A stretch of DNA of 64,000 nt, taken from NCBI GenBank assembly GCA_019744775.1, contig JAIETZ010000001.1, forward strand, positions 682,001 to 746,000, written 5' to 3'. The stretch's first letter is position 1. Every line of letters starts with the position of its first letter. This DNA is from Candidatus Obscuribacterales bacterium. GTDB taxonomy: Bacteria > Cyanobacteriota > Vampirovibrionia > Obscuribacterales > Obscuribacteraceae. A program made the position numbers and the translations under genes. Below the pieces are notes generated by a model, which saw nothing but the letters and a program-made list of their open reading frames with translations, did not search any database and was not told where the DNA came from. Below are positions 1,588 to 28,830 of this stretch, one piece after another.

Positions 1588-2819
1588 CTATGTCCTCTGT
1601 CGATTGAGTGAGGGTAAACAACTCAAGTAAAGGGCATAAGGCAGAAGCAGCGGTATTGCATGCCGTTCATATGCCCAACCAAAAATATACGGCAAAGAAT
1701 ACGCAGCAACCAGTCCGAAAAAGTTAACGGCTGCTTGCCTGGTTGCAGGCTGTCCCCACAATTGGAAAGTCAATATGAGAGCCGCCAGTTGAATTGATCG
1801 ATTGGCAAGCATGAATGTGACACATGTCCATGCCATCCATCCAGATGGATTCATATCGCCGTTTTTCGTTGGCGTGTTGCGCACCTCGCCAAAGAGAATC
1901 CAGGACCGGCGAATAAGCAACTCCAAAAAGTTCTTGGGGTGAGTAGTTATCCAGCTGAGACCAAGCTTCATGAAGTGTGAATCGCGCTCCCATTCGTTTT
2001 TGAAATTATTTGCTTCAGCTGTAGCATCAATATATGGCGGAGCCATTGGCACCCTGTCGACACTTAGTGCCGGGTAATTGACGTAATTCCAATTGTTCTC
2101 TGCTCGCCAACAATAAATTCCGGTCAAGGAAGTTCCGATATTAAATGTCCCAGTGAATTCGTTATCCCCCAACAAAGCACGGACAGCATGGTTGGCACAG
2201 CTGTTACTAAAGCGACCTTCAAAGATTTTTCTGAAATGCCACGAGCTATTGCAATCCAAACGGCAACAAAAACCATGCTGCTTTTGATCAGATACTCGAC
2301 TGCCGCCAATACCGACAGAAGATAAGGGTGTTTATCATTGGCTTTCGTTTCTACAAGGAGAAGCGCTGTGGTTACCGCAATAAGTTGAATTAGATAACCT
2401 TCTTCATAATCAACTGAACCGGAGTGAAAAACGGTCTGTGGTGTCAAGAGCGCTATGGCTATTATCAACAGCCCAAGCTTTCCGATTTGATGGCGTTTAA
2501 CAAACATCGTGATTGTTGAAAACAAAATTGCATTTAGCACTATGTTTTTTATGCACATCGCTAATGCAAGACTGTCACTCAACCGATAAATGATTGCTAG
2601 AAAGATTGGAATTAGCGGCATACGACTAGCCGATGCATGTAAATAATCAGTCCATGGATCAAACGCTATTTTGAAAGAGCCGGACTCAGCTAAATGCGTC
2701 GCCACTGGACCAAAACCAAAGCCGATATCGAATATCGTGCCCGATAGGCTTTTGCCATGGCAGTAGTAAATGACCATTTGCAAAAGCCAATAGAAGATTG
2801 TCACCGACAAAGTAAGCAT
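1588..2819 (-). pseudogene. Frameshifted multi-pass membrane protein, GT-C/ArnT-like
   Basis: Two overlapping reading frames together make one protein of about 400 residues. The first (from 2819) starts with a membrane helix and has an ASRMPLIPIFLAIIY stretch typical of ArnT/PMT-like GT-C glycosyltransferases, then several hydrophobic helices. It stops at 2124. The second frame continues with GTFNIGTSLTGIYCW and a C-terminal hydrophobic block ending at 1588. The frame must change between about 2124 and 2180, where a run of five C occurs, so either the gene is broken or one base was miscalled. The lipid-linked sugar substrate cannot be told from the sequence. Confidence 0.65.
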
Positions 2820-3147
2820 CTTCCTATCCTACCCGTTCACAACTCCACTATGGTCACCACAACACTAAACTCCGAAACCTTCTTGAATGGTCTAAGACAT
2901 AGTTATAGTCTTGCCCCAAACGGGTTGTCGAGTGTCCACAACATTTTCTCCTCTAGATGAATATAGCCGAGATCATACTGCATAAAGCTAACTCAAATAC
3001 CCTCATCCTGTAGACGCGACATAGATCTCGTGTGGTCGTTCGTCGTTGAGTTTTTCTACCAACACGTCAAACTTTGCTTGTTGTTGAAAGAGATTACCTC
3101 CTTTTGGGGCGCGTAGCTTCCTTCTTCAGCGTTAAGTACATTTGCTC
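2820..3147. other. Intergenic region with no recognised gene
   Basis: This stretch separates the minus-strand membrane protein gene from the next weak plus-strand frame. No frame has a convincing start, ribosome site or recognisable protein. I see no clear RNA gene or terminator hairpin in it. Confidence 0.5.
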
Positions 3148-3327
3148 ATGTCCGTCATTTTGCTGTGGGTTTCCGGGCTTAATGCGTTCGATGCTAATGC
3201 CCAAACGCAACCACCAAAAGGAGAATGGGGAAGTTTTCATCTGACCATGCCAATCAAGGAATATTGCAATAAGATTGGGGAGTGCAGCCAGTGCAGATCA
3301 TTATTGAAGTTTGGTGAGACTCAGTAA
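3148..3327 (+). CDS. Possible small secreted protein, or gene remnant
   Basis: A 59-residue frame from the ATG at 3148. Its first 18 residues (MSVILLWVSGLNAFDANA) read as a short signal peptide with an A-x-A cleavage site. The mature part has three cysteines (CNK, CSQC). No good ribosome site precedes it. It ends against the tail of the convergent patatin gene. It may be the 5' remnant of a longer secreted protein. Family not recognised. Confidence 0.3.
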   Translation: MSVILLWVSGLNAFDANAQTQPPKGEWGSFHLTMPIKEYCNKIGECSQCRSLLKFGETQ

Positions 3328-4409
3328 TTGCTCGGGATTCCAGAATTTCTAAATCCAGCGGACGAGACGTCGAGTTGCCGAAACCTTTCCTTTATTTCAG
3401 GTATAACGGCCCAGGCGGCTTTCTCTCCTGCATTAATGGCTTGCCTGGCATCTTTGACTTTTGTAGAAATCAGACCGATGCCATCAACATTTGGGTGAAT
3501 GACAAAATCTGCTTTCTCGAGCTGGACCGCGTCACTCGAGGCAAGTTGCAGGGTTACCAGTCGCTTAGCCACACTGCCAACTGCCTTGAAGCTCTCAAGC
3601 GGCACCGTGCCGAATCGTTCATCGACATTTACTGCGATGACTATATCAGCTCCCATCGCTCTGGCTACATCAACAGGTATATTGTCGACAACACCGCCAT
3701 CAACGAACAGTTGATTGCCAATCTGTACCGGTTCCCGCAAACCTGGCACCGCGGAGCTGGCCTGCAAGGCATAACCAAGGTTACCCCGGTTCAGCACCCA
3801 AGGCTTGCCATCAACGAGATTCAGCGCAACGGCAGCAAAAGGAATTCTCAAATGTTCGATATTGTGTTGGTACTCCGGCACAATTCGGTCCAAATATTTT
3901 CTTAACGCAGCGCCATTGTAGAGACCGTCGTATTGGTTGTGAGCAACAGTGCGAGGCAAAACGCGCACAGGTGCAGTGGCTAGAGACAGCGTTAAAGGAA
4001 CATTCATGACGGATCTCATTAGAGATCCGTCTTCAAACATGTTTTGTAGAGAGTCGGGACTTATTCCAGCACTAAATAACCCCCCAATTATTGCACCCAT
4101 ACTGGTTCCGACAATCATGTCAATTTGAACGCCAGCCCTCGTCAGGGCACGCAATGCGCCAACATGTGCCGCCCCCCTTGTGCCACCACCTCCCAACACT
4201 AATGCGACCCTTGGTCCGCTGCGAAGGAAAGGCGTATTACCGATTTTCCGCAAGTCTGAGATTGGAACACCTGCCGGATCAATTGATTGTCCTGCACAGG
4301 CAAGTTGCATCAAGCTGACTGAGGAAATTGCGGCAATGATAGCGACAAAACGGACTAGGCGCCGATTCAATCTAGATTGTTCCCCATCCCTCAGGCTCAT
4401 AGTATCCAT
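3321..4409 (-). CDS. Patatin-like phospholipase (RssA type), exported
   Basis: A 362-residue serine lipase or esterase. After a basic N-terminus and one hydrophobic segment (about residues 19-40, probably a signal peptide) comes the patatin domain. It has the oxyanion loop GGGGTRG at 73-79, the nucleophile elbow GTSMG with Ser103, and the catalytic Asp in DGG at 237-239, so the Ser-Asp dyad is complete. Patatins hydrolyse acyl esters of phospholipids or other lipids. The Cys at residue 38 is not in a good lipobox, so a lipoprotein is less likely. It is transcribed away from the diiron-tetR operon and shares its promoter region with the palindrome at 4463-4482. Confidence 0.88.
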   Translation of the reverse strand: MDTMSLRDGEQSRLNRRLVRFVAIIAAISSVSLMQLACAGQSIDPAGVPISDLRKIGNTPFLRSGPRVALVLGGGGTRGAAHVGALRALTRAGVQIDMIVGTSMGAIIGGLFSAGISPDSLQNMFEDGSLMRSVMNVPLTLSLATAPVRVLPRTVAHNQYDGLYNGAALRKYLDRIVPEYQHNIEHLRIPFAAVALNLVDGKPWVLNRGNLGYALQASSAVPGLREPVQIGNQLFVDGGVVDNIPVDVARAMGADIVIAVNVDERFGTVPLESFKAVGSVAKRLVTLQLASSDAVQLEKADFVIHPNVDGIGLISTKVKDARQAINAGEKAAWAVIPEIKERFRQLDVSSAGFRNSGIPSNY

Positions 4410-4521: not shown

Positions 4522-5628
4522 ATGGCTCAAGATGAGCGCTATTCCAAGCAAAACGTGGCAGTTTCAGAATCTTCAATAGTGCCCTCGCCGACAGTTCAAA
4601 CACACATGCCAAGTCCTGAGCAAATTCTTGCCGACACGGAAGCGGCACCGAAAATTCTGGATAGATTGAATATCTTTCCATTTGACTGGCGTGTAGAAAC
4701 TCCTCGCTTGATGGAAATCTATGAAAGCTCACGTGACCCAGGCTGGTCGCCAAGCAAACTACCGTGGGACACCCTTGATGTCAGCAAATTTACACTAGAT
4801 CAGCGCTACGCAATAGCTTACTGGTGGACTCTACTATCCGTATTCGACGCCTCAGGTCCGGCAGTGTTTGCCCGAGCCATGATTCATGCCTACGAAGTGC
4901 ATGAAGAAGATGCCATACGCAAATGCTTCTTTGCAGTAACCCGCGATGAAATGAATCACGAAGAAGTTTGTGGACGCGCCATTACACTAATGACACAAAA
5001 TGGTCCTTTAGGATACGAACCGGAAACGCTACTCGGCAAATTGGCTCGCAATAACATTGAATGGCTCTATCACAATGGCGCTCGTTATTGGACCGGCTAC
5101 AAAAAGGCTGTTGAACATTACCCAATGCCGATTCTTTTCAGCTCCTTCTTATTTGGTGAAGTAGCGTCATCGACTCTCTTCCACAGCATGTACGAAAGCA
5201 CTGATATTCCCGTATTCAAAGAAGCTTTCAAAAATATCGGCCGCGACGAAGGTCGACACTTGAGTTTCTGTCTTGCTCTTCTAAAAGAAATTCTTCCTCG
5301 ATTGAGCGAAGAAGACAAAGACATGATCACCAAGCAATTCCGTGCCGGCTTCATATTCCTGTCAGGGATTCTCTACGAGCCTCCAAAAGAATTTTGGCAA
5401 TTGCCTGATACGTTTCTTCCCGCTCAGCGCTTATTGGAGGAGAAAGCACGCGAGGCAGGCTTCAACATCTTGACACTCGAACAACGCCGCGAGAATTGGC
5501 GAACTGCTGTGGTCAGACTTAAGACTATCGTCGAGCCTTACGGCATTAAGTTTCCTGCCTTACCGGAAGTAGGCATTGATGGCGAAGACGTGGCGTTTGA
5601 TGCAGACAAGATAGTTCCTATCTTTTAA
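4522..5628 (+). CDS. Ferritin-like diiron protein (AurF/oxygenase-like)
   Basis: A 368-residue soluble protein with two ExxH iron-ligand motifs, DEMNH (E143, H146) and DEGRH (E243, H246). It also has helix glutamates in EVHEED (125-129) and FGEVASS (213). This is the layout of four-helix diiron carboxylate proteins, such as AurF-type N-oxygenases and ribonucleotide-reductase-like oxidases. The substrate is not known. A strong GGAGG ends eight bases before the ATG. It forms an operon with the tetR gene that begins two bases after its stop codon, so the regulator probably senses the substrate or product. The first 30 residues are low complexity. Confidence 0.8.
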   Translation: MAQDERYSKQNVAVSESSIVPSPTVQTHMPSPEQILADTEAAPKILDRLNIFPFDWRVETPRLMEIYESSRDPGWSPSKLPWDTLDVSKFTLDQRYAIAYWWTLLSVFDASGPAVFARAMIHAYEVHEEDAIRKCFFAVTRDEMNHEEVCGRAITLMTQNGPLGYEPETLLGKLARNNIEWLYHNGARYWTGYKKAVEHYPMPILFSSFLFGEVASSTLFHSMYESTDIPVFKEAFKNIGRDEGRHLSFCLALLKEILPRLSEEDKDMITKQFRAGFIFLSGILYEPPKEFWQLPDTFLPAQRLLEEKAREAGFNILTLEQRRENWRTAVVRLKTIVEPYGIKFPALPEVGIDGEDVAFDADKIVPIF

Positions 5629-5630
5629 AT

Positions 5631-6224
5631 ATGGTTAGACCTCGCGCTGACAATTATGATGAGCGGCGGCAATCCATTCTCGATGGCGCAGCAGAAATGT
5701 TCGCCCAGCATGGTTATGACGGCACTTCCATTGCCACCATCGCTCGCCACTTAGGTGTGTCAAAGGCGCTTCTTTATCACTACTACCAGTCAAAAGAGGC
5801 TTTGCTTTTCGACATTCTCAACTTGCATTGCGAATTGCTAGCCGACACAGCGGTTAGTGCTGTAAAAACAGAGACGGTCCCCGAGAAACAATTGCAGGCA
5901 GTCGTTCGAGCATTGATGCGTCTGTATGCAACATCTAGAGATAAACACGTCGTGCTCTTGAATAACTTGCATTGCCTATCATTGCCGCAACAAAAGCAAA
6001 TTAAAGACCTAGAGAAGAAAGTAGTACAGGTAATCAAAGACCTGCTTGCCAAATTGCAGCCACAATTGAAGCCTACTGAAAGATCAGCAATGGCCATGTA
6101 TCTGATGGGAGCAATCAACTGGACCTATACTTGGTTTCAGTCCCGTGGCGCCGTATCGGAAAAAGAATTTGCTGATCTGGCTACGTCATTGTTTCTCAAT
6201 GGTATAAACAATTCATCGGCATAG
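5631..6224 (+). CDS. TetR/AcrR family transcriptional regulator
   Basis: A 197-residue regulator. The N-terminal TetR HTH is clear: residues 10-60 contain AAEMFAQHGYDGTS, IATIARHLGVS and LLYHYYQSKEALL. The rest is an all-helical ligand-binding domain. It begins two bases after the diiron protein gene and is co-transcribed with it. The likely operator is the palindrome at 4463-4482. The last 103 bases (6122-6224) have a second, partly diverged copy at 13475-13577, on the far side of the efflux cassette. This copy is complete and looks functional. Confidence 0.92.
   Translation: MVRPRADNYDERRQSILDGAAEMFAQHGYDGTSIATIARHLGVSKALLYHYYQSKEALLFDILNLHCELLADTAVSAVKTETVPEKQLQAVVRALMRLYATSRDKHVVLLNNLHCLSLPQQKQIKDLEKKVVQVIKDLLAKLQPQLKPTERSAMAMYLMGAINWTYTWFQSRGAVSEKEFADLATSLFLNGINNSSA
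6122..6224 (+). repeat. Direct repeat, copy 1: 3' end of tetR
   Basis: The last 103 bases of the intact tetR. The first 49 bases are identical to 13475-13523. The remaining 54 differ mainly at third codon positions (for example ctg/ctc, acg/aca, ttg/ctc), with one amino-acid change (Ser to Pro) and tag/taa stops. This marks the left edge of the efflux cassette. Confidence 0.93.
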
Positions 6225-6279
6225 GGCATTTAACTTGAGGGAATTCACGGAAGTCCCTCAAGGATACAAGGACGACAGA

Positions 6280-7491
6280 ATGGAAGAAGCCTTTGAAACC
6301 CGTGACCGGCAGCGACCGTTGAAGGTGTACGTCACCCCAACGGAGCGCCAGGGATGGCAGCCCGTCACCCGCTCCCTGTGCGCCTGGGGCCTGGTGCTAA
6401 GCCTGAGCACCGGCGCCTCGCAGTCCGTTTGGTCAGCCGACACCCCGACCGAAGGCTGCGGGTCCCCGGTGCTGCACGGCACCGTTATCCAGACCGAATG
6501 CAACCGTCCGCAAAGCCCGAGCGTCAACAAGGCGGATGTGTGTGTGGTGACCCCGGGCACGGTGTTGGAACTGGTTCTTTCCACCGAGATTGCCGCCGAC
6601 GAGACCGTGGAAGGCGATCAGTTCTTCGGCAAAATCAGCAAGGACGTGCTGGTGGATGGCCGGTTGGTGATACCCAAGGGCACAGTGGCGCACGGGGTGC
6701 TGAGCACTCTTGAAGGGCCGAAGCGAGCCGGACGCAATGGCTACATCAACGCGCGCTTTGATTATTTAATAACGCCTGACGGGCGTGAAGTCCCGATTGA
6801 GGGCAACAGCACCACTCGGGACTCCAAAGGCACGGCCGCAGCCAAAGTTGTCGGACGCGCGGCGGGCTATACCGCCATTGGTGGCGTGGTAGGCACAGTG
6901 ATGGTGCTGCAATATGGTGGTCTGGCGGCGGCGGTGGCCAGCCACGGGTACGACCTGGCGGGTGGAGCGGCCATTGGTGGTGCTGCCGGGCTGACAATCG
7001 CCATGCTGACCAAGGGTAAAAGCGTCATGCTCCAGCCCGGCGCTGAAATGCACGTCATACTCAGCGAGCCGCTGCAACTGCCCACCATGAACATGCCCGA
7101 TGAGACGGCGGAAGATTACAGCATCCCTGGTCTGAAGGTGAAGGTGGCGGGTATGCGCATTGACCGGCGCCCGTGCGGCGGAGTGGGCGAAATTACGCTG
7201 ACGCTGGACATTTTGAATCAAAGCGAAAATACGTTCTCCGCATTTGATATCGGACTGGAGGACGAGCGGGGCAACGTGTTCTTCCCCTCTCCCATTGGCG
7301 ATACGAGCATGTGGTCCAGCAAAATCAAGCCCAGAGGTCACCTCAAAAACAACATCACCTTCAGCGTGGACAACGTCAAAAGCCGCCACAAGCTGGTGTT
7401 TTTCAAGCCGTATTCCCGTGAACCGCTGGCAGAATTCGCCCTGACCGATGCCATGCTGGCAAGCGGCAAAGTCAGCTCCAAAGTCCACTGA
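6280..7491 (+). CDS. Secreted protein with VirB10-like barrel pattern, GC-rich, unknown function
   Basis: About 403 residues from the ATG at 6280, which has AAGGA eight bases upstream; the frame could extend to a TTG at 6235. An exported N-terminus (about residues 25-52, ending SVWSA) is followed by a beta-rich domain with the pattern PGTVLELVL...GDQFFGKISKDVLVDGRLVIPKG, then a Gly/Ala-rich hydrophobic stretch and a C-terminal beta domain. The PGT...GxFxGxL...VIPKGS layout recalls the TrbI/VirB10 barrel, but the function is not known. The next protein outside the cassette (13591) shares this layout. Base use is very unlike the neighbours: the line 6361-6420 is 45/60 G+C. This points to a different donor. 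Confidence 0.72.
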   Translation: MEEAFETRDRQRPLKVYVTPTERQGWQPVTRSLCAWGLVLSLSTGASQSVWSADTPTEGCGSPVLHGTVIQTECNRPQSPSVNKADVCVVTPGTVLELVLSTEIAADETVEGDQFFGKISKDVLVDGRLVIPKGTVAHGVLSTLEGPKRAGRNGYINARFDYLITPDGREVPIEGNSTTRDSKGTAAAKVVGRAAGYTAIGGVVGTVMVLQYGGLAAAVASHGYDLAGGAAIGGAAGLTIAMLTKGKSVMLQPGAEMHVILSEPLQLPTMNMPDETAEDYSIPGLKVKVAGMRIDRRPCGGVGEITLTLDILNQSENTFSAFDIGLEDERGNVFFPSPIGDTSMWSSKIKPRGHLKNNITFSVDNVKSRHKLVFFKPYSREPLAEFALTDAMLASGKVSSKVH

Positions 7492-7503
7492 AGCGCGCTG
7501 GCG

Positions 7504-7518
7504 ACTGGCGTTGCCAGT
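7504..7518 (+). promoter_or_regulatory. Small hairpin between the GC-rich gene and the efflux operon
   Basis: A perfect 6-base stem, ACTGGC/GCCAGT, with a GTT loop. No T-run follows, so it is not a standard terminator. It sits near the change in base composition at the end of the GC-rich gene. Confidence 0.3.
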
Positions 7519-7579
7519 AGGAACCCACAAATTCCCCACAATGTTTCTGTAACCTGACGGTGAAAGTAACAAACAATGG

Positions 7580-8728
7580 ATGATGAAACTGTTTAAAACA
7601 CTGACACTGTGTTGCAGCGCCTCACTGCTCGTACTGTCTATATCAGGCTGTCAGGTGGTGCCTGACAGCAAAGAAGCATCGCATACAACTGTCAAAGACC
7701 TTGCGCTGAATGATGAAGAAGCATCGCATACGACTTACCAGGTCAGTAAACCCCTTGTCAAAGACCTAACGATGAATGATGAATATGTCTGTCAGATTAG
7801 AGCCATACAGCATATTGAAATTCGTTCATTAGAGAAGGGATACCTGCAAAATGTCCTGGTAGACGAAGGAGAAGCTGTTCGTCAGGGACAATTGCTTTTT
7901 CAAATAAAGCCTAGTGTCTACAAAGCCGATGTTCAAAAATCAGAAGCAGAGGTTGAACTTTCCAAAATTGAGCTGAAGAATAACCAGGCACTTGTTGAAA
8001 AAGATATTATTTCTGACACTGAAGCCGCCATGTCTGCCGCCAAGCTGGCTAAGGTTCAAGCAGAACTAGAGCTAGCCAAAACGCATTTAGGCTTTACTGA
8101 AATTCGAGCCCCGTTTGACGGGCTGATAGGCCGCTTCGGTGATATCAGGGTGGGCAGCCTGCTGGAAGAAAACCAACTGCTGACGACCTTAAGCGATACC
8201 CATCGACTTTGGGTGTACTTCAATGTGCCCGAAGCTAAGTACCTGGACTACATGAAAAACAGCGGGAAGGGTGTTTCTCAGAACGTTCAATTGGAACTCG
8301 CCAACAAGGAAATTTATTCTGAAACTGGAACGATAGAAAACATTCAGTCGGACTTTAGTAGCACCTCAGGCAATATTGCCTTTCGAGCGAGCTTTAGTAA
8401 CCCACAGGGACTGCTGCGTTACGGACAAACAGGCAAAATACTATGGCCCAAGAAGATCAATCAGGCGGTCATTGTGCCCCAAAAATCCACGTTTGAAATT
8501 TTAGATAAGCGCTTTATTTTTGTTGTCGATAAAGCAGGGGTGATTCACGAACGTGAGATTAAAGTGGCCCATGAGGCACCCAACATTTACATTGTCGCCT
8601 CTGGAATAACCCCTGATGAGATGTACCTGCTTGAGCGGCAGAACAAGCTGGATAAAGGCGACAAAATCCGTTACCAGCTGATTGATCCCCAACGTGCTAT
8701 TGAGGACTTAAAACTGTATGCAGAGTAG
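7580..8728 (+). CDS. RND efflux membrane fusion lipoprotein (HlyD/AcrA family)
   Basis: A 382-residue periplasmic adaptor. The signal peptide ends in a lipobox LSISGC with Cys24, so it is probably lipid-anchored. The biotinyl-lipoyl-like half is seen in VRQGQLLFQIKP, followed by a coiled-coil hairpin (about 120-170), LGFTEIRAPFDGLIG, and a beta-barrel domain (LWVYFNVPE). The N-terminus contains an imperfect internal duplication (7673-7717 and 7718-7783), giving EASHTT...VKDL..NDE twice. It is the first gene of the MFP-pump-channel operon, 17 bases before the pump. It links the pump to the outer membrane channel. Confidence 0.93.
   Translation: MMKLFKTLTLCCSASLLVLSISGCQVVPDSKEASHTTVKDLALNDEEASHTTYQVSKPLVKDLTMNDEYVCQIRAIQHIEIRSLEKGYLQNVLVDEGEAVRQGQLLFQIKPSVYKADVQKSEAEVELSKIELKNNQALVEKDIISDTEAAMSAAKLAKVQAELELAKTHLGFTEIRAPFDGLIGRFGDIRVGSLLEENQLLTTLSDTHRLWVYFNVPEAKYLDYMKNSGKGVSQNVQLELANKEIYSETGTIENIQSDFSSTSGNIAFRASFSNPQGLLRYGQTGKILWPKKINQAVIVPQKSTFEILDKRFIFVVDKAGVIHEREIKVAHEAPNIYIVASGITPDEMYLLERQNKLDKGDKIRYQLIDPQRAIEDLKLYAE
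7673..7783 (+). repeat. Imperfect tandem duplication inside the adaptor gene
   Basis: Unit 1 (7673-7717) and unit 2 (7718-7783) both start with gaagcatcgcatac and end with gaatgatgaa. Unit 2 has about 21 extra bases in the middle. The frame is kept. It falls just after the lipobox, where length changes are tolerated. Confidence 0.8.
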
Positions 8729-8745
8729 TTTAGGTTGGGCAAGCT

Positions 8746-11700
8746 ATGTTTCGTAACATTCTTAAACGGCCGGTACTCGGGATTGTTATCTCAGTTTTAA
8801 TCGTTTTCCTCGGCTGTTTGGCCGTCGTGCAACTTCCTATCTCACAGTTCCCCCAAATTGCGCCAACCGTCGTCGAAGTCTATATTGCCTACCCCGGTGC
8901 CAGTGCCGATGTGCTTACAAATTCGACGCTGGTACCACTGGAAGCGTCCATTAACGGGGTGCCGGGCATGCGCTATATGGCCTCTGATGCAACCAGCGCC
9001 GGTGAGGCCACCATCCGTGTGATATTTGAACCAGGTACAGACCCCAATCAGGCGGTGGTTAGTGTCAAAATCCGGGTGGATCAGGTGCTGAATCAATTAC
9101 CTCCTCTCGTTCAGCGAGAGGGTGTCATCGTTTTGCCCATCCAGTCTTCCATGCTGATGTATGTGAATTTATATTCCGACACCGACTCCTTTAAAGAGCA
9201 GTACCTTTTTAATTACGCCTATACCAAGCTGATACCGGAAATTCAACGGATTCCAGGGGTTGCGAAAGCAACCTTATTGGGCACCAGAACGTATGCCATG
9301 AGGCTGTGGCTTAAACCTGATCGCATGCGAGCCTACAACATCTCTGCTGAAGAAGTGGTCGAGGCCGTTAAAGACCAGAGTCTTATTGCCCGCCCTGGCC
9401 GGCTCGGGCGCAGCTCGGGGAAAAAATCCCAGTCTACTGAATATGTGCTCAATTATCTCGGCCGCTATTCCGAGCCTGAGCAGTACGAAAATATTATTAT
9501 CAAAAGCTCCGGGTTTGGTGAAATGGTCAAGCTTAAAGACATTGCCTCCGTGGAGCTGGGCAGTGAGTTTTATGATATTTACACCAATCTGGATGGAAAG
9601 CCCTGTGCGTCTTTGGTGCTGAAACAGACGGCCAATAGCAATGGCAGGGAAGTCATCAAAATGGTCAAAGACAAAATCAAAGAACTCTCCAAGGCGTTTC
9701 CAGACGGCATACACGTCGAGTACGCCTACGATGTCTCTAAGTTTTTAGACGCCTCGATTGAGCAGGTAATCGACACCATCCGAGATGCCTTTATTCTGGT
9801 CACGCTCGTCGTCTTTCTGTTTCTGGGGGACTGGCGTTCCACCGTCATTCCTGTCATTGCCGTACCTATTTCATTAATAGGTCCCTTTTTGGTGCTCTCG
9901 ATGTTTGGTATGTCCATTAACCTGATTACCTTATTTGCTTTGGTACTGGCCATCGGCATTGTGGTAGATGATGCCATTGTGGTGGTTGAAGCCGTCCACA
10001 GCAATATGGAGAAAAACCCGTCGCTATCGCCTTATGCGGCAACACAAAAAGCCATGAGCGAACTGGGAAGCGCTATTCTGGCCATCACGCTGGTGATGAT
10101 TTCGGTGTTTGTGCCAATAGCCTTCATTCCCGGCCCGGTGGGTGTATTTTACCGGCAGTTTTCCATCACTATGTCTAGCGCCATTATAATTTCGGCGTTG
10201 GTGGCATTAACGCTAACGCCTGTTTTATGCGCCATGTTTCTTAAAAACCATGCCGGTCACAAGCCCTCTTTTAACGTATTTCAATGGTTTATTGGGCAAT
10301 TCAATGCCCTTTTCGAAGCATTCACCCGTGGCTACTTGGGGCTGTTAAATCGTATCGTCACAAAAAAAATAATGTGCCTGGGGGTCATCCTATTATTTGC
10401 TGCCGGCATTTTTTATATGAGCCAAAATGTTTCCTCCGGCTTTGTCCCGAATGAAGACCAGGGCACCATCTACGCTATTGTTCAAACACCACCGGGGTCT
10501 ACGCTGGAGTATACAAACAAAGTAATGCGCCAGCTGGAAAAAATGTGCAAAGTGGTTGACGGGGTCGACTCGGTGACGTCGATGGCGGGCTTCGAAATCA
10601 TGACAGAAGGCAGAGGCTCCAATGCGGGGACCTGTCTTATCAACCTCAAAAACTGGGAAGACCGCAAACAAAACGTCCTTGAAATTATTGAGGAATTAGA
10701 GCATAAAGCTGTTGGGTTGGGAGGCAGGGTTGAATTTTTTGAGCCGCCGGCCATTCCCGGCTTTGGCACTTCCGGCGGATTTTCCTTGCGGTTACTGGAT
10801 AAAACCGGCGATCTCCGCTATCAGGAGCTGCAAGTGGCTACTCAGAACTTTATGCAGGCCCTGAGCAAACGCAAAGAGATTTCAGGGCTGTTTACCTTCT
10901 ACAATGCGTCCTACCCGCAATATGAAATCAAGATCGATAACCAGTCGGCCATGCAGAAGGGGGTTTCCATAAAAACGGCTATGGAAAACCTGGATGTTCT
11001 AATCAGCGGCTCTTATGAGCAAGGTTTTGTTAAATTTGGCCGGTTTTTTAAGGTCTTTACCATGGCAGCCCCTGAATACACAAGAAATCTGGATGATTTG
11101 AAGACCCTGTTTGTCAAAAATGAGCAAGGGGAAATGGTGCCCTACACGTCGTTTATGACCCTGGAAAAAACAAGAGGGGCCAATGAAATTACGCGCTATA
11201 ACATGTACAACTCTGCTGCCATTCGGGGATTCCCGGCAAAAGGGTATACGTCTGGCGACGCCATTCAGGCTATCCGCGACGTGGCTAAAAACACCCTGTC
11301 CCGCGAGTTCGACATTGCCTGGGAAGACCTGTCCTTCGACCAAGCGAAACAAGGTAATGAATTTGTTGTTATTTCCGTGATTGTTGTGCTTTTTGTCTAT
11401 TTAGTGCTGGCGGCCCAGTACGAAAGCTTTGCACTACCTTTGGCTGTACTCTTTTCCTTGCCCGTCGGTATTTTTGGCTCCTTCTCAATGCTCAAACTGA
11501 TGGGCCTGGCCAACGATGTGTATGCACAAATTGCCATTATTACCCTGATTGGACTCTTGGGTAAAAATGCTGTATTAATCGTCGAGTTTGCGGTTCAAAA
11601 ACGCAATGAAGGTTTATCGTTGCGAGACGCTGCACTGGAAGGCGCCAGAATGCGGTTTCGACCTATCCTGATGACGTCCTTTGCCTTTGTCGCAGGGCTT

Positions 11701-11985
11701 ATCCCCCTTGTGTTGTCTGAAGGCGCAGGCGCAGTCGGGAATAGAACCCTTGGTTCATCTGCCATGGGTGGGATGATGACAGGCACCATCATCGGCGTGT
11801 TGATTATTCCGGGGCTCTACTTTGTTTTCGCCACCCTGGTTGATGGCAAAAACCTGCTGAAAGATGAAGTACATACCAGTATCACGGACGCCATTGCAGG
11901 GATTCAAAAGAACCGTTGGGAAATACACAGACATCTAAAAGGACAACTTAAATTACTGATCAAAAAAATGAAGCCTAAGAATTAG
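8746..11985 (+). CDS. RND multidrug efflux pump, HAE1 family
   Basis: A 1079-residue inner-membrane proton/drug antiporter of the AcrB type. Twelve membrane segments and two large porter loops are recognisable. The proton relay is intact: the DD pair falls at residues 408-409 (IGIVVDDAIVVVEA) and the Lys of GLLGKNAV at 940. Family signatures FVPNEDQG and FRPILMTS are present. It sits between the adaptor and the TolC-like channel, giving a full tripartite pump. The substrate cannot be read from the sequence. It lies in the block bounded by the duplicated tetR end, so it was probably gained by transfer. Confidence 0.97.
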   Translation: MFRNILKRPVLGIVISVLIVFLGCLAVVQLPISQFPQIAPTVVEVYIAYPGASADVLTNSTLVPLEASINGVPGMRYMASDATSAGEATIRVIFEPGTDPNQAVVSVKIRVDQVLNQLPPLVQREGVIVLPIQSSMLMYVNLYSDTDSFKEQYLFNYAYTKLIPEIQRIPGVAKATLLGTRTYAMRLWLKPDRMRAYNISAEEVVEAVKDQSLIARPGRLGRSSGKKSQSTEYVLNYLGRYSEPEQYENIIIKSSGFGEMVKLKDIASVELGSEFYDIYTNLDGKPCASLVLKQTANSNGREVIKMVKDKIKELSKAFPDGIHVEYAYDVSKFLDASIEQVIDTIRDAFILVTLVVFLFLGDWRSTVIPVIAVPISLIGPFLVLSMFGMSINLITLFALVLAIGIVVDDAIVVVEAVHSNMEKNPSLSPYAATQKAMSELGSAILAITLVMISVFVPIAFIPGPVGVFYRQFSITMSSAIIISALVALTLTPVLCAMFLKNHAGHKPSFNVFQWFIGQFNALFEAFTRGYLGLLNRIVTKKIMCLGVILLFAAGIFYMSQNVSSGFVPNEDQGTIYAIVQTPPGSTLEYTNKVMRQLEKMCKVVDGVDSVTSMAGFEIMTEGRGSNAGTCLINLKNWEDRKQNVLEIIEELEHKAVGLGGRVEFFEPPAIPGFGTSGGFSLRLLDKTGDLRYQELQVATQNFMQALSKRKEISGLFTFYNASYPQYEIKIDNQSAMQKGVSIKTAMENLDVLISGSYEQGFVKFGRFFKVFTMAAPEYTRNLDDLKTLFVKNEQGEMVPYTSFMTLEKTRGANEITRYNMYNSAAIRGFPAKGYTSGDAIQAIRDVAKNTLSREFDIAWEDLSFDQAKQGNEFVVISVIVVLFVYLVLAAQYESFALPLAVLFSLPVGIFGSFSMLKLMGLANDVYAQIAIITLIGLLGKNAVLIVEFAVQKRNEGLSLRDAALEGARMRFRPILMTSFAFVAGLIPLVLSEGAGAVGNRTLGSSAMGGMMTGTIIGVLIIPGLYFVFATLVDGKNLLKDEVHTSITDAIAGIQKNRWEIHRHLKGQLKLLIKKMKPKN

Positions 11986-11995
11986 TCAGTCAACC

Positions 11996-13468
11996 ATGAG
12001 CGGAATAAACAGAAAAAAAATTGTTAGTCTTTTAACACCCATAGCTCTTATGGGAGTCCTGCAAGCACCTGTTTTTGCAAAATCATGGATTCATCCGCTT
12101 AGTCTGTTGGAAAGAAAGCCGACATTCAACGTACCAAAGAAGTATGACACTCCGCTGCTGAAGGGCTCTGTTGAAGTTGATAGCGCGGCTACTATTAGCT
12201 GGCGGCATTTTTTTTCTGATCCTTATCTTGTCTCCCTGATTGAAACAGCCCTGGCAAATAACCAAGAATTCAATATTGCAATACAGGATATTGAAATTGC
12301 TGCCAATGAAGTGAAAGAAAAACGAGCTGAGTATTGGCCTAAAGTCGGCTTGGGGTTTGGCGCAAGTTACATTAAGCCATCCGAAAACACCCAGGAAGGC
12401 GTGTTGGATAAAATTATTGTTGAGAGAGGTATTATTAATAACCCGGATTTTAACCTGAATCTGGGTCCGTCGCTGAGCTGGGAAGTGGATATCTGGAAAA
12501 AATTCAGAAATGCCAAAGAGGCAGCCAGACTGCGTATGGTGGCACAATATGAGGTCCGCAATTTTCTTATTTCCAGGCTCGTTACTGAAATAGCACGCAA
12601 CTATTATGAATTAATGGCTCTGGATACGTCTTTGAAGATACTGGATGCAAACATCAGCATCCAGGAAGCGGCTTTCCTTAAAATGCAGACCTTGAAGCGT
12701 TATGCCAAAGCGAACCAATTAGGGGTCAATCGGTTTGAAGCCCAGTTAAACAACACTAAAAGCCAGCGGTTTGAAACCAGTCAAAGAATTGTTGAAAAAG
12801 AGAATCGTCTGAAGTTCCTCTCCGGTATCTATAATGAAGCGCCAATATTGAGACACTCTGACCAGTTTATGGCGATTCCGGTGGATGAATTGCAGACGGG
12901 TGTGCCTGCTCAGCTTTTGGAAAACAGAGCCGATATTCGTCAGGCTGAAGCGGCGATTAAGGCGGCAAAGCTCGATTTAAAAAGTGCCAAGGCCCAGCTA
13001 TACCCCAACGTGACGATTAGGGCAGGTACTGGCTTTTCGGGGTTTGATCCTCAACTGCTGTTTCAACCACAGTCGTTGTTATACAATGCAATGGGTGACT
13101 TAATGCTTCCATTGATCAACCGAAACGCAATCCTTGCACGAATACAGACAGCCGATGCCCACCAAACCCAAGCGGTTTTGACTTATGAGCAGACTTTACT
13201 AAAAGCCTACACCGACGTTCTTAATCAGGTGTCAAATATAAGAAATATGCAGCAGGCTTTTGATAAAAAAAACCGAGAAGTCGTATTGCTTGAGCAGTCT
13301 ATCGGTACGGCAAACATGCTGTTTAAGTACGCCAAGGCGACTTACATCGAAGTGCTGCTCGTCCAGGAAGAGGCACTGGAAGCCGAAAAAGAACTGGTTG
13401 AAGTGAAAATGAACCTGGTCGGGTCCAGAGTTGACCTCTATCGAGCACTAGGGGGCGGCTGGAAGTAA
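11996..13468 (+). CDS. Outer membrane efflux channel (TolC/NodT family)
   Basis: A 490-residue outer membrane factor. The signal peptide ends near residue 28 (APVFA). Two internal OEP repeats are visible, with the family signatures WRHFFSDPYLVSLIETAL near the start, LSWEVDIWKKF, and ENRADIRQAEAAIKAAKLD at the start of the second repeat. There is no lipobox Cys. It starts 10 bases after the pump gene and completes the tripartite system. Six bases separate its stop from the second copy of the tetR end, so the cassette boundary is here. Confidence 0.94.
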   Translation: MSGINRKKIVSLLTPIALMGVLQAPVFAKSWIHPLSLLERKPTFNVPKKYDTPLLKGSVEVDSAATISWRHFFSDPYLVSLIETALANNQEFNIAIQDIEIAANEVKEKRAEYWPKVGLGFGASYIKPSENTQEGVLDKIIVERGIINNPDFNLNLGPSLSWEVDIWKKFRNAKEAARLRMVAQYEVRNFLISRLVTEIARNYYELMALDTSLKILDANISIQEAAFLKMQTLKRYAKANQLGVNRFEAQLNNTKSQRFETSQRIVEKENRLKFLSGIYNEAPILRHSDQFMAIPVDELQTGVPAQLLENRADIRQAEAAIKAAKLDLKSAKAQLYPNVTIRAGTGFSGFDPQLLFQPQSLLYNAMGDLMLPLINRNAILARIQTADAHQTQAVLTYEQTLLKAYTDVLNQVSNIRNMQQAFDKKNREVVLLEQSIGTANMLFKYAKATYIEVLLVQEEALEAEKELVEVKMNLVGSRVDLYRALGGGWK

Positions 13469-13474
13469 GTAGTA

Positions 13475-13577
13475 GACCTATACTTGGTTTCAGTCCCGTG
13501 GCGCCGTATCGGAAAAAGAATTTGCCGATCTCGCCACATCACTCTTTCTTAATGGTATAAACAATTCACCCGCATAA
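13475..13577 (+). pseudogene. tetR 3'-end fragment (direct repeat, copy 2)
   Basis: Encodes the last 33 residues of the TetR regulator and its stop, without the rest of the gene. It matches 6122-6224 exactly for 49 bases, then differs mainly by synonymous changes. Those differences mean the two ends evolved as working genes before being placed here, so this is a remnant of a related allele or paralogue rather than a fresh duplication. It marks the right edge of the efflux cassette. Confidence 0.9.
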
Positions 13578-13590
13578 GAGGTTTTCTATT

Positions 13591-14277
13591 GTGAGTTCAA
13601 GAACGCCGTTGCTACTCTCTACGCTCTGCTTGTTGTTACTTAGTAGCACGTCTGGTGCACTCGCCGACGAAACCGAATCATTTTTAAGAGGCGGGGTTGC
13701 TAGTAGTCCGTCCGAACTCACAGTTCCTGCAACATTTAAGGTCGTCTTTTTTGAGCCGCTTGATCTTCATAAAATGCATACAGGCACAGAAATAAGCGGT
13801 CGTCTAAAAGAAGATTTGAAAGTTAACAAGAATGTTGTTGCCCCTGCCGGCTCCATTGTTACCGGCTACGTTCAAATGGTAGATAAGAAAGGTAGCGATG
13901 CTGTCGGCATAACAGAGGAAAAGCGAAAGCATTCGGGCTACAGACTTGTCTTTGACGAAATTATTCTCAGTAACAAAGAGCGACTGAAAGTACAGGCGTT
14001 GCCTATTGAAACTATCTCAGTCTTCAACAACAAAGGTGAATTTCGCTCGATAACAGTAGGACCTGGTGGAGTAATTAAAAAAGTTGAGTCGCTAGATGTA
14101 GTCGAATCTGTACTTGATATAGTGGTTTCACGTTCAATGGTTGAACGTGGAATGTACTTCAAGAGAAACGATGAAATTGAAGTTAGGCACAATTATTTAG
14201 GTTCCGAAAGAGTTGCAAGCAAGGCAGAAAAGAGCAGACGAAGACAAACTGCTATCAAGAAACAGATAACACTCTAA
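13591..14277 (+). CDS. Secreted barrel-type protein, unknown function
   Basis: A 228-residue protein from a GTG start preceded by GAGG. The signal peptide ends at ALA (about residue 26). The mature part has PATFKVVFFEPLDL...GTEISGRLKEDLKV...VVAPAGSIVTGYV, the same layout as the N-terminal domain of the 6280 protein. The C-terminus is basic. It begins 13 bases after the tetR end fragment, as the 6280 frame closely follows the intact tetR. The ancestral order was therefore probably diiron-tetR-barrel protein. Function not recognised. Confidence 0.72.
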   Translation: MSSRTPLLLSTLCLLLLSSTSGALADETESFLRGGVASSPSELTVPATFKVVFFEPLDLHKMHTGTEISGRLKEDLKVNKNVVAPAGSIVTGYVQMVDKKGSDAVGITEEKRKHSGYRLVFDEIILSNKERLKVQALPIETISVFNNKGEFRSITVGPGGVIKKVESLDVVESVLDIVVSRSMVERGMYFKRNDEIEVRHNYLGSERVASKAEKSRRRQTAIKKQITL

Positions 14278-14284
14278 GAATTCT

Positions 14285-14369
14285 GCACCGTATTTGCACT
14301 CAAAAAAACTGAGGGTTCCCACAAACCCCAAAGCCCTCACAAAATGGCGCCTTCGGAGAGATTCGAACT
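14285..14369 (-). repeat. Degenerate attachment-site remnant: tRNA 3' end plus terminator
   Basis: Read on the minus strand, this holds a tRNA-like 3' end (TTCGAATCTCTCC then GGCGCCA, about 14345-14369), a hairpin with GTGAGGG/CCCTCA arms, a T-run, and GTGCAAATACGGTGC (14285-14299). The same order occurs just downstream of the intact tRNA-Arg (28691-28750, with GTGCAAATAGGGTGC). The 5' half of the tRNA is missing and the T-stem does not pair. Best read as the outer end of an integrated element. Confidence 0.6.
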
Positions 14370-14404
14370 GCCAGCACCAAACAGTAAAAGCTCGATAGTC
14401 AAAA

Positions 14405-14668
14405 TCACACTAAACTCTGAAGGTCGGATGCCGGCTCAAAGAGAACCCCACGCTCACTAGGTCGCAACAAATTCCTGATGAATTGTTGTTCTCGCTTATC
14501 TTTCCTTACGGGAATAACAACATGATCTTGTCTACTTTCCTTATGTATTGTCCACATTTCAGACTGTGTGGGCGCCCGTTCTGCCACCGCGGACACTATT
14601 GGGAAAGCAAAGATACACATGCTTCCCCATAAACAAGATTTGGCAAAACTGGCCGACAATGATTTCAT
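14405..14668 (-). CDS. Small secreted protein, unknown
   Basis: About 87 residues from the ATG at 14668, chosen because AGGAGG lies at a normal distance; a GTG nine bases earlier would overlap that site. The N-terminus is a signal peptide (about residues 1-29, ending VSAVA). The mature part is short, charged and lies downstream of the LRV-repeat gene on the same strand. No family recognised. Confidence 0.55.
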   Translation of the reverse strand: MKSLSASFAKSCLWGSMCIFAFPIVSAVAERAPTQSEMWTIHKESRQDHVVIPVRKDKREQQFIRNLLRPSERGVLFEPASDLQSLV

Positions 14669-18907: not shown

Positions 18908-18917
18908 CTCACCCAGA

Positions 18918-18960
18918 TGGCACCCGCGAAGAGACTCGAACTCGCGACACCCTCGGCAGG
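18918..18960 (-). repeat. tRNA-Arg 3'-end fragment (attachment-site remnant)
   Basis: A 43-base copy of the 3' part of the tRNA-Arg at 28755-28830, differing at only a few positions. It starts at the encoded CCA (TGGCACCCGCG on the plus strand) and runs to the anticodon stem. The 5' half is absent. About ten bases of the tRNA downstream sequence (ctcacccaga) are also kept. This is what a site-specific integration at a tRNA 3' end leaves at the far end of the island. Confidence 0.82.
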
Positions 18961-19024
18961 ACCAAAAACACCATTGCTTCTCTCTTCATTTGCAATTCAC
19001 GCCGGCGAGTGGTAGGTTTGATGA

Positions 19025-28436: not shown

Positions 28437-28754
28437 TCGTCCTACCGAAAATTGTTACACAAGCCCTTTTTGCACTCACACCTATCGCACTTGCTCAAAT
28501 AAAGCATTCATACGTCTGAATCAACCATGCTATTTCTGCAAACAATATTCCCAGTGGTTAAGTAGATAAAGCACAACATCGGCGGCAGAAGAACTCGAAC
28601 CGCTAATCCCTTCGCTTACAACTACGAGGCCGGCACGCGGCAGGCATATCCGTGTAAGGCGCGAAAACGCCCTAAATCAACATTGATTTCGCACCCTATT
28701 TGCACCCGGAAAGAAAAGTGAGGGCTGGGGCGATCCCCGAAACCCTCACCCAGA
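28437..28754. other. tRNA-downstream attachment region
   Basis: No gene. It holds the tRNA-Arg terminator (28711-28749), the GTGCAAATAGGGTGC element (28691-28705, minus-strand reading) and a further tRNA-like scrap around 28581-28605 (GGTTCGAGTTC, minus strand). The region probably was the integration target. Confidence 0.55.
28711..28749 (-). terminator. Rho-independent terminator of tRNA-Arg
   Basis: On the minus strand, GTGAGGG and CCCTCAC enclose a second GGGG/CCCC stem, followed by TTTTCTT. It begins five bases after the tRNA 3' end. Confidence 0.8.
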
Positions 28755-28830
28755 TGGCACCCGCGGAGAGACTCGAACTCCCGACACCCTCCTTAGGACG
28801 GAGGTGTTCTATCCACTGAACTACGCGGGC
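28755..28830 (-). tRNA. tRNA-Arg (anticodon CCT)
   Basis: A 76-base cloverleaf with GCCCGCG/CGCGGGT acceptor arms, the anticodon loop GTCCTAA between CCTCC and GGAGG, a T-loop TTCGAGT, and an encoded CCA. The CCT anticodon reads AGG. Fragments of its 3' end at 18918-18960 and possibly 14345-14369 show it was an integration site. Confidence 0.96.

Follow-up and report, generated by a model that had tools for sequence, protein, structure and literature searches.

In the window, a 64,000-nucleotide stretch of the genome of a Candidatus Obscuribacterales bacterium (G000 below), an uncultured non-photosynthetic relative of cyanobacteria, a tetR gene is followed by a four-gene operon and then by a second copy of its own 3′ end (Table 1). 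The insert between the two copies (6225–13474; 7.25 kb) encodes a TrbI-like protein, an RND adaptor, an RND permease and a NodT-family channel. The adaptor, the HAE permease and the outer-membrane channel all scored over their cut-offs (TIGR01730, TIGR00915 and TIGR01845), as a tripartite RND pump demands, and we assign the operon to RND tripartite efflux pump genes with a predicted role in export. No recombinase or integrase was found among the genes of the insert by matches to Pfam and TIGR families. The start of the TrbI-like gene was placed at ATG 6280; the longest open reading frame begins at TTG 6235, and family homologues align from residue 16 of that longer frame. The linker upstream of this start contains a palindrome with 13-bp arms (6234–6262) that is a possible operator.

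Table 1: Features of the tetR locus, in window positions
Feature	Position	Strand	Evidence and remarks
Gene for an AurF/ribonucleotide-reductase-R2-like diiron protein; ancestral partner upstream of tetR	4522..5628	+	Weak Pfam AurF and Ribonuc_red_sm matches, below curated cut-offs; AurF–tetR pair kept in relatives
tetR, intact, 197 aa	5631..6224	+	TetR_N and TetR_C_24; 96% aa identity to G001; in the preferred reading a hybrid of a host 5′ part and an imported last ~52 bp
Left copy of tetR 3′ end	6122..6224	+	6122–6172 identical to 13475–13525 of the right copy; 6173–6224 imported tail (preferred reading)
55-bp linker, tetR stop to TrbI-like start codon	6225..6279	+	Replaces ~150-bp upstream region conserved in relatives
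TrbI-like envelope protein gene	6280..7491	+	TrbI match just under Pfam cut-off
RND periplasmic adaptor (membrane fusion protein)	7580..8728	+	TIGR01730 RND_mfp over cut-off
RND permease	8746..11985	+	ACR_tran; TIGR00915 over cut-off
RND outer-membrane channel, NodT family	11996..13468	+	TIGR01845 over cut-off
6-bp right junction, operon / orphan tetR fragment	13469..13474	+	Homology sets in abruptly at 13475
Right copy, orphan native tetR 3′ end	13475..13577	+	Runs on into native downstream DNA; alignment with G001 carries on past the stop and into the downstream gene
G228, native gene downstream of tetR	13591..14277	+	85% aa identity across 200 aa; gene order as in G001

Pairwise comparison of the two copies confirmed that the last 103 bp of tetR lie on both sides of the efflux cassette, with 93 of 103 positions identical. 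The original prediction described the first 49 bases as an exact match; the match is exact but slightly longer, at 51 bp. All 10 mismatches fall in the remaining 52 positions (0/51 versus 10/52; Fisher's exact test, p = 0.001), and these differences are, as predicted, almost entirely silent: by codon, 7 are synonymous, including the stop codon (TAG in the left copy, TAA in the right), and 1 is non-synonymous (Ser/Pro). The repeat begins abruptly, with ...AATCAACTG as left neighbour and ...AAGTAAGTAGTA as right neighbour, and beyond the stop codon the copies are no longer homologous. In a background survey of 1.6 Mb from three family genomes (G000, 800 kb; G046, 400 kb; G053, 400 kb), the tetR case was the only unique direct repeat of a protein-gene 3′ end across an insert, so the repeat is not due to chance. 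A genome-wide habit of 3′-end duplication was likewise rejected, as no other case occurred in this 1.6 Mb.

A search of relatives identified an empty version of the site. In G001, a member of the same genus and the closest relative found (tetR 96% identical in amino acids), the locus reads patatin–AurF–tetR–G228 without the cassette; this is the arrangement for which the original prediction had advised looking, a strain with tetR directly before the gene at 13591. The cassette is also missing behind the AurF–tetR pair in six other relatives with a readable downstream flank. G001 is the one relative with the empty site, too narrow a basis for placing host and donor breakpoints inside AurF–tetR. 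Because the right tetR copy runs on into G228 as it does in G001 (TAAGAGGTTTTCTATTGTGAG versus TAAGAGTTTTTTATCATGAG), it is tetR's native tail and has kept its original downstream neighbour. Homology of the left copy to G001 is lost right after the stop, and the left tail seems to have come together with the cassette. The direction of the event can be read from the orphan native tail, and an empty site in a close relative combined with an orphan native end on its native flank is the pattern expected of a single-crossover or one-sided-homology import without a recombinase.

The differences from G001 indicate what kind of sequence the two tails are. All 12 codon differences between the right copy and G001 are silent, as are 11 of the 12 between the left copy and G001, whereas random changes would be silent in about 24% of cases. 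As these differences are almost wholly silent, both tails are samples of tetR genes that were working until recently. An old, decaying duplicate of the tetR end is ruled out: an orphan should decay regardless of codons, yet the right copy is silent at 12 of 12. Over the last 53 bp the tails show 7 and 8 differences from G001 and differ from each other at 10 positions; the distance between the tails is no smaller than that of either tail from G001, and the left tail therefore stems from a third lineage. The empty site in G001 and the silent differences together support the earlier proposal that simple tandem duplication does not fit and that recombination between tetR alleles, one of them carrying the efflux genes, fits better. 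Relatives with the same two tetR copies, which would have spoken for old fixed duplicates, were not seen in any of 50 family genomes.

The further suggestion that the exact-match stretch is the crossover area is plausible but unproven. The 51-bp identity is statistically distinct from the rest of the repeat; it is not proof, as mismatch positions in the alignment of the same tetR gene from G000 and G001 also leave identical runs of 41–50 bp. For alleles that differ by about 10%, 51 identical bp in a row is unusual, yet it does not prove a tract boundary. The run may be a recombination anchor or simply a conserved run and, taken alone, does not locate the crossover.

We found the same four genes in other Obscuribacteraceae genomes at 62–90% amino acid identity. 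The channel gene is present in 18 of 50 family genomes and the TrbI-like gene, at 65% or more, in 19. Close relatives of the operon occur almost only in Obscuribacteraceae; the Cryomorphaceae label on the bin of one carrier contig probably reflects misbinning. The cassette is therefore a family-specific, patchy operon. A foreign, proteobacterial origin, our first guess from composition, was rejected, as the relatives form a family-wide Obscuribacteraceae operon. Phage or plasmid carriage was rejected because the TrbI-like protein has no relatives in plasmids or viral contigs; relatives of the channel on plasmids are all under 60%, and neither tetR nor its core occurs in viral contigs.

The pump tree pairs G000 with G015 at 100/100, in conflict with rpoB, which places G000 with G001. 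(Most family genomes have two rpoB-family genes; those of G000 are at C1:72911–75406 and C4:208962–211511.) The operon has different neighbours in most genera, and some synteny is seen inside genus g37 and among a few genera; part of the distribution is therefore vertical, and the G000 copy is displaced. Most relatives have ~150 bp of conserved sequence ahead of the TrbI-like gene; c0 and c1, two small genes, are linked to the operon. In G000 this upstream region is cut off about 55 bp before the TrbI-like start codon. The G000 genome lacks c1, which led us to reject an intragenomic move that left the linked c1 behind. Both c0 (secreted, PPPPPY-rich) and c1 (96 aa) are uncharacterised and have no Pfam match; they sit downstream of the operon in L068, L069, L071, L076, L077, L080, L085, L059 and other loci. 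The c1 gene was seen in operon-carrying genomes only, and the c0–c1 pair is inverted or relocated among them. Another carrier genome has a broken second copy of the channel gene (L091, G007:C8, 3816–4377) and an intact operon elsewhere.

We consider it probable that the operon was imported from a relative that already had the cassette behind its own tetR allele, through homologous recombination with tetR as the anchor. Import is supported by the empty site, the native right copy, the coding-type divergence of the tails, the patchy and horizontally exchanged operon, and the lack of a recombinase in the insert. The ancestral locus would have been AurF–tetR–G228, and in the donor the tetR allele would already have been trailed by the TrbI–RND efflux operon. 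Incoming DNA would have entered by homologous recombination anchored in tetR, producing a full-length gene made of the host 5′ part and the donor's last ~52 bp, followed by the donor operon; the hybrid TetR protein would be intact because these ~52 bp differ almost only silently. At the far side, the incoming DNA would have been joined to host tetR about 100 bp before the stop, orphaning the native tail and G228 behind the operon. This could have happened through a circularised fragment and one crossover in the 51-bp identity, through homology at the left and an illegitimate right end, or through double-crossover transfer of an insertion whose end was already duplicated, with the right crossover inside the orphan copy. 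All three routes are recombination between tetR alleles, one carrying the pump genes. A donor with such a tetR allele followed by the operon was not found among the 50 family genomes.

The 51-bp identity could count against import if it were an attachment core. The locus would then be the remnant of an integrative element that used the 51 bp in tetR as its core, carried a substitute tetR 3′ end, and had its integrase lost or supplied in trans. Such integration would explain an identical core that has unrelated sequence before it at the right junction and a silent-divergent substitute 3′ end after it, and it has a parallel in prophage e14 in icd of E. coli K-12, where a 165-bp 3′ end is duplicated with 12 changes (PMC11148124). 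As in that type of element, the core is present at both ends here, and the substitute 3′ end restores the gene (51 bp, then the silent-divergent tail, with tetR intact); moreover, in G001 a tyrosine integrase and tRNA-Arg att-like repeats adjoin the locus. However, the 7.25-kb insert has no integrase and holds the TrbI-like, adaptor, permease and channel genes only. Nor is the core reused by other carriers, which have different flanks: the repeat at carrier locus L059 and the tRNA-Arg site have no common core with the tetR repeat, the longest string shared by L059 and tetR being 7 bp. We therefore regard site-specific integration as unlikely. A tRNA or tmRNA target beside the cassettes was also rejected, none being found close to them.

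An assembly artefact would have to join two coexisting strains, with and without the cassette behind tetR, at their common 51 bp. A stretch of 51 bp falls in the range of assembly word lengths and is compatible with such a switch, and contamination of the genome assembly is estimated at 2.4%. But a shared word accounts for one strain switch and not for the adjacency of channel gene and tetR fragment at 13474/13475, and both junctions lie within one 841-kb contig of a 13-contig genome, so that a chimera is highly improbable. Still harder to credit is an insertion that simply duplicated the end of tetR, after which the copies diverged in place while partial gene conversion kept 51 bp identical: two copies with a homogenised block would indeed result, but the orphan should have gathered non-silent changes, and instead all 12 of its codon differences from G001 are silent, and the insert is missing from G001. 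Equally hard to credit is a cassette ancestral at this site in the genus and lost from G001. A deletion between the repeats would produce just the empty site that G001 has, although an old orphan would keep neither the all-silent pattern nor the 51-bp identity, and no cassette lies behind the AurF–tetR pair in the six relatives with a readable flank.

Among 14 carrier loci with both flanks readable, one besides the tetR case has a duplicated 3′ end. At L059 (2260–2498 and 12504–12742) a 239-bp, 98.3% repeat of the 3′ end of the upstream gene spans the operon insert; as with tetR, it extends to the stop codon, and the complete gene is the left-hand one. Relatives of this upstream gene occur in G048 and G046, and neither L059 neighbour follows it there. 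The carrier loci total about 230 kb and yield this single extra case, against about 0.14 expected if the tetR case sets the rate; as a second instance it is suggestive but not statistically convincing, and we claim no mobile element. At L080, a resolvase-family serine recombinase gene lies upstream of the operon (2796–3377) and a 58-bp fragment of the same gene lies downstream (14425–14482). G008 has the permuted order MFP–RND–OMF–TrbI (L070, 4916–12033), in which the start of the TrbI-like gene follows the stop of the channel gene by 8 bp. The L059 duplication, the circular permutation in G008 and the inverted or relocated c0/c1 genes hint that the operon might be a recombinase-free mobile unit of the family that forms circular intermediates and repeatedly lands behind host stop codons, duplicating 3′ ends, a reading that we think has little chance of being correct.

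Other repeats were also noticed. Att-like copies of the 3′ end of tRNA-Arg(CCT) form an array (window 14335–14378, 18908–18962 and 28745–28830; L021 12283–13764). In G001, one such copy and a tyrosine integrase lie directly behind G228, and a SulP gene is on the other side of patatin–AurF–tetR; this arrangement implies that modules at tRNA-Arg have been shuffled between both species. A dispersed repeat family of ~87 bp (GCTCCGGTTTCGCTTCGC...) has up to 24 matches in 800 kb of G000 contig C1 (for example, at 381431, 420236, 610885, 618316 and 783701).

Import through tetR, if correct, would provide a natural record, in an uncultured lineage, of how a multi-gene efflux operon can come to lie behind a conserved gene that stays whole, with no integrase visible. 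An intact gene, its cargo and an orphan 3′ end with silent divergence form a usable search signature for similar imports. The event is ordinary in kind: it left a clear mark of recombination between relatives, but one that has precedents. Like the locus described here, e14/icd has a 3′ end duplicated across the insert, an intact gene with a mostly silent substitute end and the native end orphaned on the far side. By contrast, e14 has an integrase gene, intE, whereas the insert in tetR encodes no recombinase and consists of one metabolic operon, and the tetR carrier has no fixed attachment core in common with L059. Re-circularised linear DNA integrating by a single crossover generates partial duplications of 109–950 bp (PMC3240628); as here (103 bp), a partly duplicated end of a homologous gene flanks non-homologous cargo, although that system used laboratory plasmid substrates and fully homologous lacZ and ours occurred in nature and involved diverged alleles. 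Homology-facilitated illegitimate recombination has been proposed for the orphan 3′ ends of T6SS effector and Rhs loci, where new cargo also lies behind a conserved anchor and the old 3′ end is left downstream (PMC5361080). In those loci a variable effector end or immunity gene is displaced, whereas here the anchor gene is intact and the orphan is its own tail. Finally, the cargo resembles HAE-1-type RND operons with a NodT-family channel in having adaptor, permease and channel in one operon, here with an adjoining tetR, but it differs from them in being headed by a TrbI-like gene and in that the neighbouring tetR comes from the AurF locus and is not ancestrally the pump's.
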